This document shows, in pieces, positions 26,042 to 38,320 of a DNA stretch of 46,315 nt (positions are counted from its first letter, which is position 1; every line of letters begins with the position of its first letter). The stretch is taken from positions 10,762 to 57,076 of the forward strand of contig CABVSR010000026.1 in the NCBI GenBank assembly GCA_902500995.1. Reading direction: 5' to 3'. The position numbers were made by a program, and so were the translations under genes. Below the pieces are notes generated by a model, which did no database searches, was not told where the DNA came from, and was given only the letters and a program-made list of their open reading frames with translations. The stretch is from an uncultured Nitrospira sp. (GTDB lineage Bacteria; Nitrospirota; Nitrospiria; Nitrospirales; Nitrospiraceae).

Positions 26042-26212
26042 ATGCCCAAGGCAAGAAGCGCAAAAAACTGTTACTACTGTGAAGCGGAAGACCGGATTAA
26101 AATGACGTTCATGCTCTGCGGAATCTGCCATCGGCACTTTTGCAGCGCCCATGGCATGCCCGATTTGGAGCAGTGCACGAAGTGTTTGGAAGCAAGCGAA
26201 GAAACGGAGTAG
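26042..26212 (+). CDS. Cys-rich small zinc-binding protein (56 aa)
   Basis: Short gene with AGGAGAAGGA directly before ATG 26042 and stop TAG at 26210-26212. The 56-aa product has the cysteine/histidine pattern NCYYC, then LCGICHRHFCSAHG, then QCTKC: three CxxC-type pairs plus His, enough for two treble-clef/B-box-like or AN1-like zinc sites. No signal peptide. Likely a small cytosolic nucleic-acid- or protein-binding zinc finger; function unknown. It follows prfC by 337 bp and is immediately followed by the MITE-like element at 26219. Confidence 0.78.
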   Translation: MPKARSAKNCYYCEAEDRIKMTFMLCGICHRHFCSAHGMPDLEQCTKCLEASEETE

Positions 26213-26218
26213 TCCTTA

Positions 26219-26342
26219 CAGGATGCTGAAAAAGTCTGTCAGCGGCGTTCTCGCATCGCTCGGACCCTCAACGTACCCCTGAGGGTACGCCTCGGCCCCT
26301 CGCTCGCTGCGGCCTTGCTGAACAGCCTTTTTGAGCATCCTG
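26219..26342. mobile_element. MITE-like element, 124 bp with ~25-bp terminal inverted repeats
   Basis: The left end CAGGATGCTGAAAAAGTCTG (from 26219) is repeated inverted at the right end (26317-26342, reverse complement CAGGATGCTCAAAAAGGCTG). The centre holds CGTACCC-CTGA-GGGTACG, a perfect hairpin. The same architecture recurs at 32079-32204. No coding capacity. It lies just downstream of the Cys-rich gene and may double as a transcription terminator for it and for the convergent AAA-like gene. Confidence 0.7.
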
Positions 26343-26386: not shown

Positions 26387-26956
26387 CTAGGCGGTCGGTT
26401 TCTTCCGCTGCTTCTTGTCGATGCCCACCATCACCGAGACCCGCGCCTGCTTCGACAAGGCTCGATCGATGCGGCTTTTGCCGTTGGTCGTCAGAATGAC
26501 CAGGCCCTGGTGATCCTCAATACGTTGCAGTAAATGAGCCGCCCCCGCATTGGCATACTGGTTCGCGCCTTTCTTGGCGGGCCGGTGTGTGCCGAACAAG
26601 GCATCGGCTCCATCGAAAAACAAAATCGACCCGCTGCGTTCAGCCTCGTCGAAGACCCGGTTGATGTTTTTTTCGGTTTCGCCGACCAGCCGGCTCACCA
26701 CAGACGACAGATTCACTTTCAATAAGTCGAGCTGCAGCTCTTCTGCGACCAGTTCCGCCGCCTTGTTCCTGCGCAAGGGCGTGGAACCAGATAAGACAAC
26801 CACTGCCACAGAAGATCTTCCGCTTCGCCCGGTCTTTGCGCGGCGCGCAGGAGTCGACTTCTTCGCCGCGGCTTTCTTGATTACCTTGCTGCCGACCTTT
26901 TTCTTCGATGACTTCAATGCCGCGTCTGCTGCCCGTTTCACCTTATTCCCAGCCAT
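26387..26956 (-). CDS. Degenerate AAA protein without Walker A, copy 1
   Basis: 189 aa from ATG 26956, preceded by a purine-rich GAGAGGACGAGG. The first ~48 residues are extremely Lys/Arg/Ala-rich (histone H1-like), and the C-terminus ends in another basic tail. Residues about 50-160 align with the AAA ATPases of the CDC48-like group found in Nitrospira and in contractile-injection clusters: LNLSSVVS-like strand, VGETEKNINRVFDEAE, ILFFDGADALFG (Walker B, with Gly for the catalytic Glu), HLLQRIEDHQGLVILTTN (sensor 1). The Walker A GPPGTGKT position reads SGSTPLRRNKA, without the Gly-Lys-Thr. There is no Arg finger and no lid domain. A nucleotide-binding-dead pseudo-ATPase is inferred. Downstream of the SF2 helicase by 83 bp, same strand. 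Confidence 0.82.
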   Translation of the reverse strand: MAGNKVKRAADAALKSSKKKVGSKVIKKAAAKKSTPARRAKTGRSGRSSVAVVVLSGSTPLRRNKAAELVAEELQLDLLKVNLSSVVSRLVGETEKNINRVFDEAERSGSILFFDGADALFGTHRPAKKGANQYANAGAAHLLQRIEDHQGLVILTTNGKSRIDRALSKQARVSVMVGIDKKQRKKPTA

Positions 26957-27039: not shown

Positions 27040-28596
27040 TCAACGCTTCTTGTCAAAACCGGAATCCCGCCACTTCTCCAGCAGAGCAATCCGCCGCTCC
27101 AACTGGGCGATGGTCGCCTGATCGACGCGGCCGCCGGTCCGCTTGATCAATTCCGCGTTGAGTTGCCGATGATCCATGCCGCACTTTCTCGCCACGGCCC
27201 CAACCAGGAGCCGGTGTTTGTCCCGTAAGAGGTTCTTCTGATCGTGGAGCGCCACTGCCGGTTCTGGTTGCCCCTTCCCCGTTCCTGAGGGCTCACCGTC
27301 ATCCGCGCCGATCAAGGCGTCGAGTCGCGCCACACCATTGAGCGGAACATATTCTTTCAGTGACGTCGCCGCCGTCCCGAACAGCGTCCGCTGCACAGCC
27401 GGCATGATCTCCTCGAGCACGTGATCGCGCTCGACCTTGATCCGCTTGGCATAATGCACCAGTGTGGCGTCCTTCGGCAGGTAGAGCCAGGCCCGTTGCG
27501 GTCTCGGCACTTTCTCCTGCATCCGCACAAAGCGCCCGACGACCTGGCGAAAATACATTTCCGTCAACACGTTGGTCGCGTACACCCCGACCCGGAGGCG
27601 CGGGATATCGACACCTTCACTCACCATGTTCACCGCCACCAACCATTGCTGCGTTTTATGATGGGCAAAGGTTTCGATCGTCTTCGAGGCGGAGGGATCG
27701 TCTGACACGGCGACCAGCGCGCGCGTCCCGGTGAGGCGATGCACCAGATCAGCCACCTGCCGCGCATGGTCCTGATTCATAGCCACGATCAGGCCGCCCG
27801 CGTCCGCCTGCTCCTGCTTTCGCAGACGCTGCAACTCGGCATGCGCGTCGCCCAACACCGGACCCAGCCAGGTTTCCTGGAGCAACGCGGTCTTGAGCCG
27901 CTCGCGCTGCCGCTCGAAGGTCAGCCCGTCTTCGAACGTGGCCCGGTGCTCGCGCCCGTCGGATAACCAGGTGAGTTCTCCCTCATAACTGGGAAACAGA
28001 ATTGGACGGCACACGCCGTCGCGGATGGAATGCGAATAGCCATAGGTAAAATCCGCCTGGCTTTCGCCCTGCTCGTACCGTACGAACGGAATGGGATTAT
28101 TGTCCGACCGGAACGGCGTGCCCGACAGGGCCAGACGGAACACGGCCTCACCGAACGATTCACGCAGCGCCTTGCCCCAGTCTTTCCCGTCTCCGGCATG
28201 GTGCAACTCATCGAGAATCACCAGGGTCTTCCGGTTACGGCAGGCGCGCCGGAAGACATCCGGCGCAAGGCAGACCTGCTGATAGGTCACCACCGCGCCG
28301 TGATAATCCCGCGCTTCGCAGGCCTGTTCATTGGACAAGGCCGGATCCAGTTGAATGCCCGCCTGCCCTGCCGCCGCAGCCCACTGCGTGCGCAGATGAT
28401 TCGTCGGGCAGACCACGAGGACACGGCTGGCGGCGCGCGCTGCCAGATAATGATGGGCGATCCGCAAGGCAAAGCGCGTTTTTCCCGCCGCCGGCGTCGC
28501 CGTCACGAGATAATCTTCGCGCGTCTGCGCCAACACATCGGCCACTGCACGCGCCTGCCAGTCGCGCAACGCAGCTGTCCAAGGACGAACGTTCAC
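27040..28596 (-). CDS. DEAD/DEAH-type superfamily 2 helicase
   Basis: Protein of 518 aa starting at a GTG (28596) behind GAGGCGGGG. SF2 motifs are intact: motif I TPAAGKT (34-40), motif Ia VVCPTNHLRTQW (about 61-72), motif II DELHH (129-133), motif III SGTPFRSD (158-165), motif V VSEGVDIP and motif VI RQVVGRFVRM. This resembles the ResIII/XPB-like helicases of restriction and phage-defence loci rather than DEAD-box RNA helicases. The last ~100 residues are an extra helical C-terminal domain (KCGMDHRQLNAELIKR, QLERRIALLEKW). ATP-dependent DNA translocation is expected. No nuclease or methylase partner is adjacent; the pseudo-AAA gene follows on the same strand. Confidence 0.88.
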   Translation of the reverse strand: MNVRPWTAALRDWQARAVADVLAQTREDYLVTATPAAGKTRFALRIAHHYLAARAASRVLVVCPTNHLRTQWAAAAGQAGIQLDPALSNEQACEARDYHGAVVTYQQVCLAPDVFRRACRNRKTLVILDELHHAGDGKDWGKALRESFGEAVFRLALSGTPFRSDNNPIPFVRYEQGESQADFTYGYSHSIRDGVCRPILFPSYEGELTWLSDGREHRATFEDGLTFERQRERLKTALLQETWLGPVLGDAHAELQRLRKQEQADAGGLIVAMNQDHARQVADLVHRLTGTRALVAVSDDPSASKTIETFAHHKTQQWLVAVNMVSEGVDIPRLRVGVYATNVLTEMYFRQVVGRFVRMQEKVPRPQRAWLYLPKDATLVHYAKRIKVERDHVLEEIMPAVQRTLFGTAATSLKEYVPLNGVARLDALIGADDGEPSGTGKGQPEPAVALHDQKNLLRDKHRLLVGAVARKCGMDHRQLNAELIKRTGGRVDQATIAQLERRIALLEKWRDSGFDKKR

Positions 28597-36372: not shown

Positions 36373-37278
36373 CTAAATCGCCAGACTGCGTCTGATCCGG
36401 CGAACAATGTCATCCGGGGGAAGGGCGGCGTCGATCACCAGCGCGTCGGCAGGCTCTTCCAGGATGGCCAGCTGGCTGTCGACCAGCTCCTGAGGCATGA
36501 AATGATCCCGGCGATTCCCCACACGCCGGCGGAACAGGTCGGCTGTGCCTTTCAAATAGACTAGGCGCACGGATCGGGCGCATCCTTCCTCCACAATCGA
36601 CCGGTAGGTCCCTTTCAACACCGAGCAGGCGATGACCGCCGGCTCGTTCATGCGCACCTGATCGATGATGGCCGCATGCAGGCGATCGAGCCAGGGTCGA
36701 CGATCCTCATCCGTCAGCGGACGGCCGCTCCGCATCTTGTCGACGTTCGTTGCGGGATGAAAATCGTCGCCCTCCAAGAACCGCCAGCCCAAGACTTCTG
36801 CCAGGCGGCGACCGATCGTCGTTTTTCCCGCCCCCGAGACGCCCATCACCAGGACGATCAGAACGGGGTGACTGTCCGGATGTTTCGCAGATCCATCGGC
36901 AGAAGCGACAGTCGATTCCCTCGCCTTGCCGGCCGGAGCCCCCTCGCCCGGCGTGGCCGCGACAAGATGCGAGATGATCACAGAGGCATCGCTGATCGGA
37001 TCGGCGGTAAACGGCGCCTCGTGGCGCCTGGTCACAGCAGTGATCAGGCGTTCGGCTGCTTCCCTGACGGACAGGGGAAAGGCCACCTGCTGCCGGATGC
37101 GACGTAAATACGCCATCGCATCCGCCGGTTCCTGCAGTTCACCGCGTCCGGCCGACCAGGCTTCAGCGGCCACAGCCACCGCCCGGCGCGCGCAGACCCG
37201 GGCCTTCCCTTCGTTGCCTGCATGCCAGGCCTGTTGCGCCGCAAAGAGTTCCTGAGCCATCCGGGATGCATGCGACAT
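36373..37278 (-). CDS. Gluconokinase fused to an N-terminal helical domain
   Basis: Protein of 301 aa. Residues ~138-301 are a complete GntK-type gluconokinase: Walker A GVSGAGKTT (146-154), then GDDFHPATNVDKMRSGRPL, ACSVLKGTYR and HFMPQELVDSQLAILEEP. It phosphorylates gluconate to 6-phosphogluconate for the pentose phosphate or Entner-Doudoroff route. Residues 1-~110 are an added helical domain (FAAQQAWHAGNEGKARVCARRAV, REAAERLITAVTRR, DPISDASVIISHLV) resembling a HEPN-like four-helix bundle, joined by a Ser/Ala/Lys linker. Ordinary GntK is ~170 aa, so the fusion is unusual. It could tether or regulate the kinase. GntK domain secure; the N-terminal assignment is inference. Confidence 0.85.
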   Translation of the reverse strand: MSHASRMAQELFAAQQAWHAGNEGKARVCARRAVAVAAEAWSAGRGELQEPADAMAYLRRIRQQVAFPLSVREAAERLITAVTRRHEAPFTADPISDASVIISHLVAATPGEGAPAGKARESTVASADGSAKHPDSHPVLIVLVMGVSGAGKTTIGRRLAEVLGWRFLEGDDFHPATNVDKMRSGRPLTDEDRRPWLDRLHAAIIDQVRMNEPAVIACSVLKGTYRSIVEEGCARSVRLVYLKGTADLFRRRVGNRRDHFMPQELVDSQLAILEEPADALVIDAALPPDDIVRRIRRSLAI

Positions 37279-37753: not shown

Positions 37754-38320
37754 TCACAGCTTTTTGGACACCGTCTTTCTTGATCTCACTGCTGCAGTCG
37801 CCTTCGTCTGAGACCGCTTGTTCTTGGCGGCTCCCCCCAAGACAATGACCGGCTTTTCCGGCGGGAATAGGTCCTCGATGCGGCGCTTGCCGTTGGTCGC
37901 CAGAATGACCAGTCCCTGGTGCTGCTCGATACAGTGCAAGAGATGAGCGACCCCGTCGTTCCCCGGTCGATCATGGCCTTCATCCTGCCCTGTTCGTTTG
38001 CCGAACAAGGCATCGGCCTCGTCGAAGAAGAGAATCGACCCGTGGCGATTCGCCATATCGAACACACGATTGACGTTCTTCTCGGTCTCGCGCGCATGTT
38101 GACTGACGACCGCCGACCAATCCACCGCGGCAAGATGCAATTGCAGCTCCTCCGCCAGGACCTTCGCCGCTTTCTGCCGGCGAAGCGGCGTGGCTCCCGA
38201 CAGCACGATCACCGCGCCGGAAGGTTCGCCGGCCCTGGCTCTGCTCGTCTTTTTCGCAGGCTTGGTCTTGCCCTGCTGCCGAGGCTGTTTTGTTCGTCTG
38301 GTCGCTGGTGCACCTGCCAT
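37754..38320 (-). CDS. Degenerate AAA protein without Walker A, copy 2
   Basis: 188 aa from ATG 38320, paralogous to the gene at 26387-26956. A Lys/Arg/Gln-rich N-terminal tail (about 1-33) is followed by VIVLSGATPLRRQKAAKVLAEEL, where the Walker A loop GPPGTGKT has become SGATPLRRQK; RETEKNVNRVFDMA, then ILFFDEADALFGKR with an intact DEAD Walker B (unlike copy 1), and HLLHCIEQHQGLVILATNGK as sensor 1. There is no lid domain or second sensor and a basic tail ends the protein. Conventional ATP hydrolysis is unlikely. The two copies share the same truncated extent, so the form is inherited and selected rather than a chance truncation. Confidence 0.82.
   Translation of the reverse strand: MAGAPATRRTKQPRQQGKTKPAKKTSRARAGEPSGAVIVLSGATPLRRQKAAKVLAEELQLHLAAVDWSAVVSQHARETEKNVNRVFDMANRHGSILFFDEADALFGKRTGQDEGHDRPGNDGVAHLLHCIEQHQGLVILATNGKRRIEDLFPPEKPVIVLGGAAKNKRSQTKATAAVRSRKTVSKKL

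Follow-up and report, generated by a model that had tools for sequence, protein, structure and literature searches.

The window analysed here is a stretch of 46,315 nucleotides from a Nitrospira genome of 3.97 Mb, and it carries two genes, hereafter copy 1 and copy 2, for short proteins that combine an AAA core with basic tails (Table 1). Translation of the open reading frames confirmed the coordinates and the lengths of 189 and 188 aa recorded in an earlier note made from the sequence alone; both genes lie on the minus strand, and neither frame is interrupted by an internal stop. The near-equal length, which that note had counted towards a shared shape, is real but is no constraint, since orthologs spread over about 172–200 aa.

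Table 1. Features of the window, with positions counted from its first nucleotide.
Feature	Position	Strand	Remarks
Copy 1, lidless AAA-core pseudo-ATPase with basic tails	26387..26956	-	189 aa, ATG at 26956
Copy 1, N-terminal basic tail, residues 1-49	26810..26956	-	
Copy 1, replaced P-loop SGSTPLRRNKAAE, residues 56-68	26753..26791	-	From alignment to intact AAA
Copy 1, ETEKN, residues 93-97	26666..26680	-	Fully or nearly invariant in alignments
Copy 1, Walker B region FFDGAD, residues 113-118	26603..26620	-	Gly in place of the catalytic Glu
Copy 1, C-terminal basic tail, from residue 181	26390..26416	-	
Copy 2, paralog of copy 1	37754..38320	-	188 aa, Walker B retains its Glu (DEAD)
Copy 2, replaced P-loop SGATPLRRQKAAK, residues 41-53	38162..38200	-	From alignment
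Copy 2, N-terminal basic tail, residues 1-35	38216..38320	-	
SF2 helicase (ResIII/DEAD)	27040..28596	-	Directly upstream of copy 1, same strand
Small Cys-rich (AN1-like?) protein, 56 aa, between prfC and copy 1	26042..26212	+	Weak AN1 zinc-finger match; genus-conserved neighbour
Small domain (about 110 aa) fused to gluconokinase-like kinase	36373..37278	-	Neighbour of copy 2

Copy 1 is found in 24 of the 29 genomes of this Nitrospira genus and an intact copy 2 in 25 of the 29. Two genomes assembled into one contig each (G001 and G007) have copy 1 only, and a third single-contig genome (G004) has neither. A sister genus of the same family encodes a single short copy in 23 genomes, with 48–60% identity to copy 1 and tails of the same kind. 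Searches of plasmids and phages returned only matches below 60% identity; beyond the Nitrospirota, the search consisted of one scan of genome contigs with a single close query, and more distant members may occur in other phyla.

The gap between the helicase and copy 1 measures 60–113 bp in 24/24 genomes, and the helicase was considered as an operon partner; it was rejected as a family-wide gene that often stands without copy 1, so that its constant adjacency says little about function. In G004 and G043 the same neighbours adjoin each other, copy 1 being cleanly absent from the site. Just downstream of copy 1, at 26218–26342, is an element of ~125 bp whose terminal inverted repeats (CAGGATGCTGAAAAAG ... 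CTTTTTGAGCATCCTG) are near-perfect; 43 places are listed for it in the genome. Copy 2 adjoins a GIY-YIG gene as well as the kinase fusion, whose N-terminal 110 aa carry the pattern GKARVCARRAV ... PFTxDP and match no Pfam family. This small domain stands alone beside the single short AAA in the sister genus, and it is absent from the three single-contig genomes that lack copy 2. Co-occurrence nevertheless fails to establish it as a partner, because some genomes have the domain but no short AAA at all, others a short AAA but no such domain, and joint deletion would explain the pattern; it is a weak candidate.

Both proteins match the Pfam AAA family (PF00004) well above its cut-off of 21.2 bits, copy 1 with 63.3 bits and copy 2 with 55 bits, and in both the match begins only at model position 14, which indicates that the Walker A part is missing. 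The best-scoring named bacterial AAA profile was that of the anti-phage AAA ATPase IetA (49 bits in NCBIfam, 50 bits in PADLOC). The copies differ from IetA in having no Walker A, and their NCBIfam scores of 49.1 and 38.6 bits fall far below its equivalog cut-off of 510 bits; the other NCBIfam and PADLOC matches were likewise to general AAA or IetA-like profiles, those of NCBIfam far below cut-off. A structure model for which 19 close orthologs were used reached a mean pLDDT of 50 and was poor. An AlphaFold2 model of copy 1 built from 40 sequences, intact AAA among them, was of middling quality overall (mean pLDDT 64, pTM 0.54), with block means of 75–89 over residues 51–120 and of 32–48 in the N-terminal tail, which is predicted to be disordered, and with pLDDT below 50 for residues 1–46. 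Comparison of this model with the PDB returned the AAA domains of p97 and its relatives (VIA Z up to 15.6, over 126–136 residues). The prediction thus shows the copy-1 sequence to be compatible with an AAA core fold, compatibility rather than independent discovery, since the intact AAA sequences in the input alignment bias the model towards that fold.

Alignment to intact AAA domains, taken from viral contigs and Nitrospirota genomes, places GSTPLRRN of copy 1 and GATPLRRQ of copy 2 where the intact proteins have GESGTGKT or GPSGTGKT. Among 70 aligned family members (22 copy-1, 25 copy-2 and 23 sister-genus sequences) none has a Walker A of the form GxxxxGK[S/T]. The replacement takes the family form SG[S/A]T-x-LRR-x-KAA: SGSTPL[RH]R[NS][KT]AA fits 22/22 copy-1 genes, [SA]GAT[PA][LF]RRQKAA fits 25/25 copy-2 genes, and SGST[PAV]LRRRK occurs in each of 13 sister-genus sequences that a stricter pattern missed only through the residue preceding the motif. 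The helix motif ETEKN is nearly invariant, the Walker B strand is preserved, and the sensor-1 Asn mostly so. Most sister-genus members have the pore-loop aromatic (KYIG), which Nitrospira has largely lost. The RR arginine-finger pair has become [RK]Q in copy 1 and is lost in copy 2 and in the sister genus, and the C-terminal lid with sensor 2 is absent from both copies, the protein ending after the core; the finger pair and lid of a catalytically competent AAA ATPase are thus found in neither. The earlier note had described just such a core, with Walker A replaced, the lid gone and ETEKN, the Walker B region and sensor 1 kept, and the alignments bear this out, including the loss of Walker A across orthologs that it had proposed as a check. 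Its further observation that copy 1 has lost the catalytic Glu is true of the gene in the window but is not fixed among orthologs (DGAD in 15/22, DEAD in 6/22 and DDAD in 1/22), and the residue is retained in 25/25 copy-2 sequences as well as in sister-genus members.

A phylogenetic tree of the core, calculated without the P-loop columns, places copy 1, copy 2, the sister-genus proteins and short proteins of three further genomes (G351, G272 and G038) together, a 98/95 branch separating them from the full-length AAA ATPases; the placement of the proteins from these three genomes is less sure, as they form long branches. One of two identical rows for the window was labelled as full-length in this tree, which accounts for mixed counts in the copy-1 group and leaves the topology unaffected. 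The protein of G272 has a similar motif, GSTKLQRRK. Copy 2 groups with the sister genus on weak support (86/75), so that the duplication may either predate the split of the genera or follow it. No ortholog of the same length with an intact Walker A was found among the 70 sequences from close relatives. Two candidates for such an ortholog, a 263-aa open frame of G032 with GLNGTGKT and a short AAA of G188 with DPSGTGKT, fall outside the family clade.

The G188 protein belongs instead with short AAAs of G204, G292 and G235 in a separate clade (100/96) from another family, within the full-length side of the tree. The P-loops of these four loci (L112, L114, L115 and L110, respectively) form a graded series from nearly intact to lost, namely DPSGTGKT in G188, DPSGKRKT in G204, DPHGAGRT in G292 and GSSDDLKT in G235, and at least one finger Arg is kept. 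Two further short sequences were observed. The G038 protein (L032/L116), an open frame of 202 aa, has an AAA core that lacks Walker A (GPRQKEKL); its N-terminus is hydrophobic and resembles a signal peptide, and it is possibly exported. At G321:C1:366850-367248, a short AAA-core match with an internal stop lies ~14 kb from a full-length AAA and may be a short copy in decay.

The nearest intact paralog in the source genome, for which the earlier note had suggested looking, is an AAA ATPase at G000:C10 with 46% identity over the core. It lies at a locus (L205, G000:C10:100000-119000) that also encodes a sheath, Pvc16, two eCIS-core proteins and a baseplate-like protein, neighbours which assign it to an extracellular contractile injection system (eCIS); we take the gene to be of the Afp15/Pvc15 type. 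By sequence comparison the short family is shown to be related to the AAA domain of these eCIS-type ATPases, which differ from it in being full-length, with an intact GESGTGKT, a lid and an RR finger. Neither copy has eCIS genes as neighbours in the window, and none were seen around the short AAAs at 12 other loci.

An intact relative in the same genome raises the possibility that the short proteins act as regulators, each a nucleotide-free AAA subunit that would join and modulate a ring of an intact AAA ATPase. The model for such a role is the luminal domain of human LAP1 and LULL1, the activators of Torsin, which has an AAA+ fold that lacks both Walker A and the C-terminal lid domain. The copies are likened to it by these fold features, and the view of the earlier note that their build corresponds to no described family therefore holds for the libraries searched but has to yield to LAP1/LULL1, in which a lidless, Walker-A-less AAA fold was already known; a search of the literature on pseudo-AAA proteins in Nitrospira found nothing relevant. 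LAP1 differs, however, in being eukaryotic and membrane-anchored, and in keeping the arginine finger that defines its action, whereas neither the two copies nor the sister-genus proteins have retained this finger. The distribution of the eCIS-type AAA is also at odds with such a role: seven sister-genus genomes (G118, G189, G166, G238, G270, G371 and G391) and G012 have the short protein without it, their only other AAA proteins being FtsH-like or of other kinds at about 26–36% identity, while G004 has an eCIS-type AAA and neither copy. The many sister-genus genomes without an eCIS-type AAA argue against an obligate partnership with it, although an AAA of another kind might serve as partner, and the proposal of the earlier note that the copies modulate a bona fide AAA partner is weakened to the point where we consider it unlikely.

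The selection acting on the family was assessed by codon comparison. Median dN/dS over the core is 0.073 for copy 1 and 0.064 for copy 2, and 0.14 in the sister genus, whereas the N-terminal tails evolve much faster (0.38 in copy 1 and 0.45 in copy 2; 0.35–0.45 for tails overall). Over the 13 codons of the replaced P-loop the values are 0.000 for copy 1, 0.039 for copy 2 and 0.10 in the sister genus. By amino-acid difference, only 9 of 111 windows in the copy-1 core are as conserved as this segment or more so; in copy 2 and in the sister genus the segment is moderately conserved (29/111 and 20/111 windows, respectively, as low or lower). Low dN/dS and conserved windows together indicate that the segment is under selection in its present form, and, being among the most constrained of the core, SG[S/A]T-x-LRR-x-KAA reads as a new motif rather than as decay.

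The old P-loop might alternatively have been repurposed, GSTPLRR forming a new site for a ligand or phosphate (a nucleic-acid backbone, polyphosphate or a phosphorylated protein) and the domain serving as a sensor and not only as a scaffold. The rank of the segment within copy 1 and the related motif of G272 are consistent with this, but the same conservation may reflect the fold of the β1-α1 turn or a contact with another protein, and we give this reading as little credence as the regulator.

That the genes are decaying or selfish pseudogenes without function, an outcome that the earlier note had considered, is highly improbable. The fast-evolving tails, the clean absence of copy 1 from its site in two genomes and a frameshift that splits copy 2 of G010 would fit decay, but the G010 assembly is fragmented (1030 contigs, 88% complete), the frames in other genomes are intact, and core dN/dS stays at 0.06–0.07 across deep divergence. 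Decay is rejected on these grounds. With orthologs throughout the genus, purifying selection on both cores and loss of Walker A in 70/70 members, the maintained pseudo-ATPase family proposed in the earlier note is upheld, and we regard it as almost certain that a non-ATPase family is being maintained here. Continued binding of ATP by a degenerate P-loop is just as improbable as decay, since the mostly retained Walker B Asp, ETEKN and sensor 1, and the DEAD of copy 2, are set against the replacement of G and of K by R at the two key P-loop positions, the missing lid, sensor 2 and arginine finger, and a catalytic Glu that is free to vary in copy 1.

The tails at both ends are basic, as had been claimed: net charge of the N-terminal tail lies between +12 and +19 in all 22 copy-1 orthologs and between +8 and +12 in copy-2 orthologs, and acidic residues are nearly absent (about 0.4 to 0.9 per tail). 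Rich in Lys and Arg, the tails retain their charge even as their sequence diverges, and in this they resemble disordered nucleic-acid-binding tails; binding of nucleic acid through them is plausible. Compared with nucleotide-shuffled tails the excess of charge is modest (mean z 1.8 to 2.7), as the shuffling of GC-rich DNA gives many Arg codons too, and with so moderate an excess polyanion tethering is something that we infer rather than observe. For tails that fix a folded domain to the nucleoid, or to granules of polyphosphate or PHA, precedents are provided by AlgP and PhaF, whose K-rich (histone H1-like) tails are thought to tether granules to the nucleoid. The composition and low predicted confidence of the tails studied here would fit the same arrangement of a folded domain with a Lys/Ala-rich disordered basic tail, but they are shorter, stand on both ends and lack KPAA repeats, and the folded domain is of another kind.

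Our preferred explanation is a maintained family of catalytically dead AAA cores that act as ATP-independent, polyanion-tethered adaptors, and as a whole we judge it to be evenly balanced between right and wrong; the tethered-adaptor mechanism taken by itself falls at or slightly short of that mark. The absence of Walker A, lid and finger makes ATP turnover very unlikely, and the family proteins are probably scaffolds, not motors. ATP would be neither productively bound nor hydrolysed, and the AAA core would serve as a static protein-interaction platform. The tails, perhaps aided by the two arginines where the P-loop used to be, would hold this core on nucleic acid or on another polyanion such as polyphosphate, and the result would be an ATP-independent adaptor tethered to the nucleoid or to granules. 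A bolder proposal is tentative and, on balance, rather doubtful, if less so than the regulator: the P-loop would not simply have been lost but would have become a conserved binding element of a new kind (GSTPLRR), with an ATP-independent protein tethered to a polyanion as the result, and lidless AAA cores whose P-loops are damaged would have more than one origin in the phylum, in the family described here from the Nitrospiraceae and in the separate, well-supported clade from another family.

The best-known pseudo-AAA proteins are those of eukaryotes and those that form part of ATPase rings. The two copies appear to be a stand-alone, vertically kept bacterial pair of such proteins in nitrite-oxidising bacteria, encoded by two uncharacterised genes that are common to most Nitrospira of this genus. 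Their ATP loop has given way to a motif on which selection is no weaker than on the rest of the core, and they offer a clean case for testing how a motor domain becomes a scaffold.
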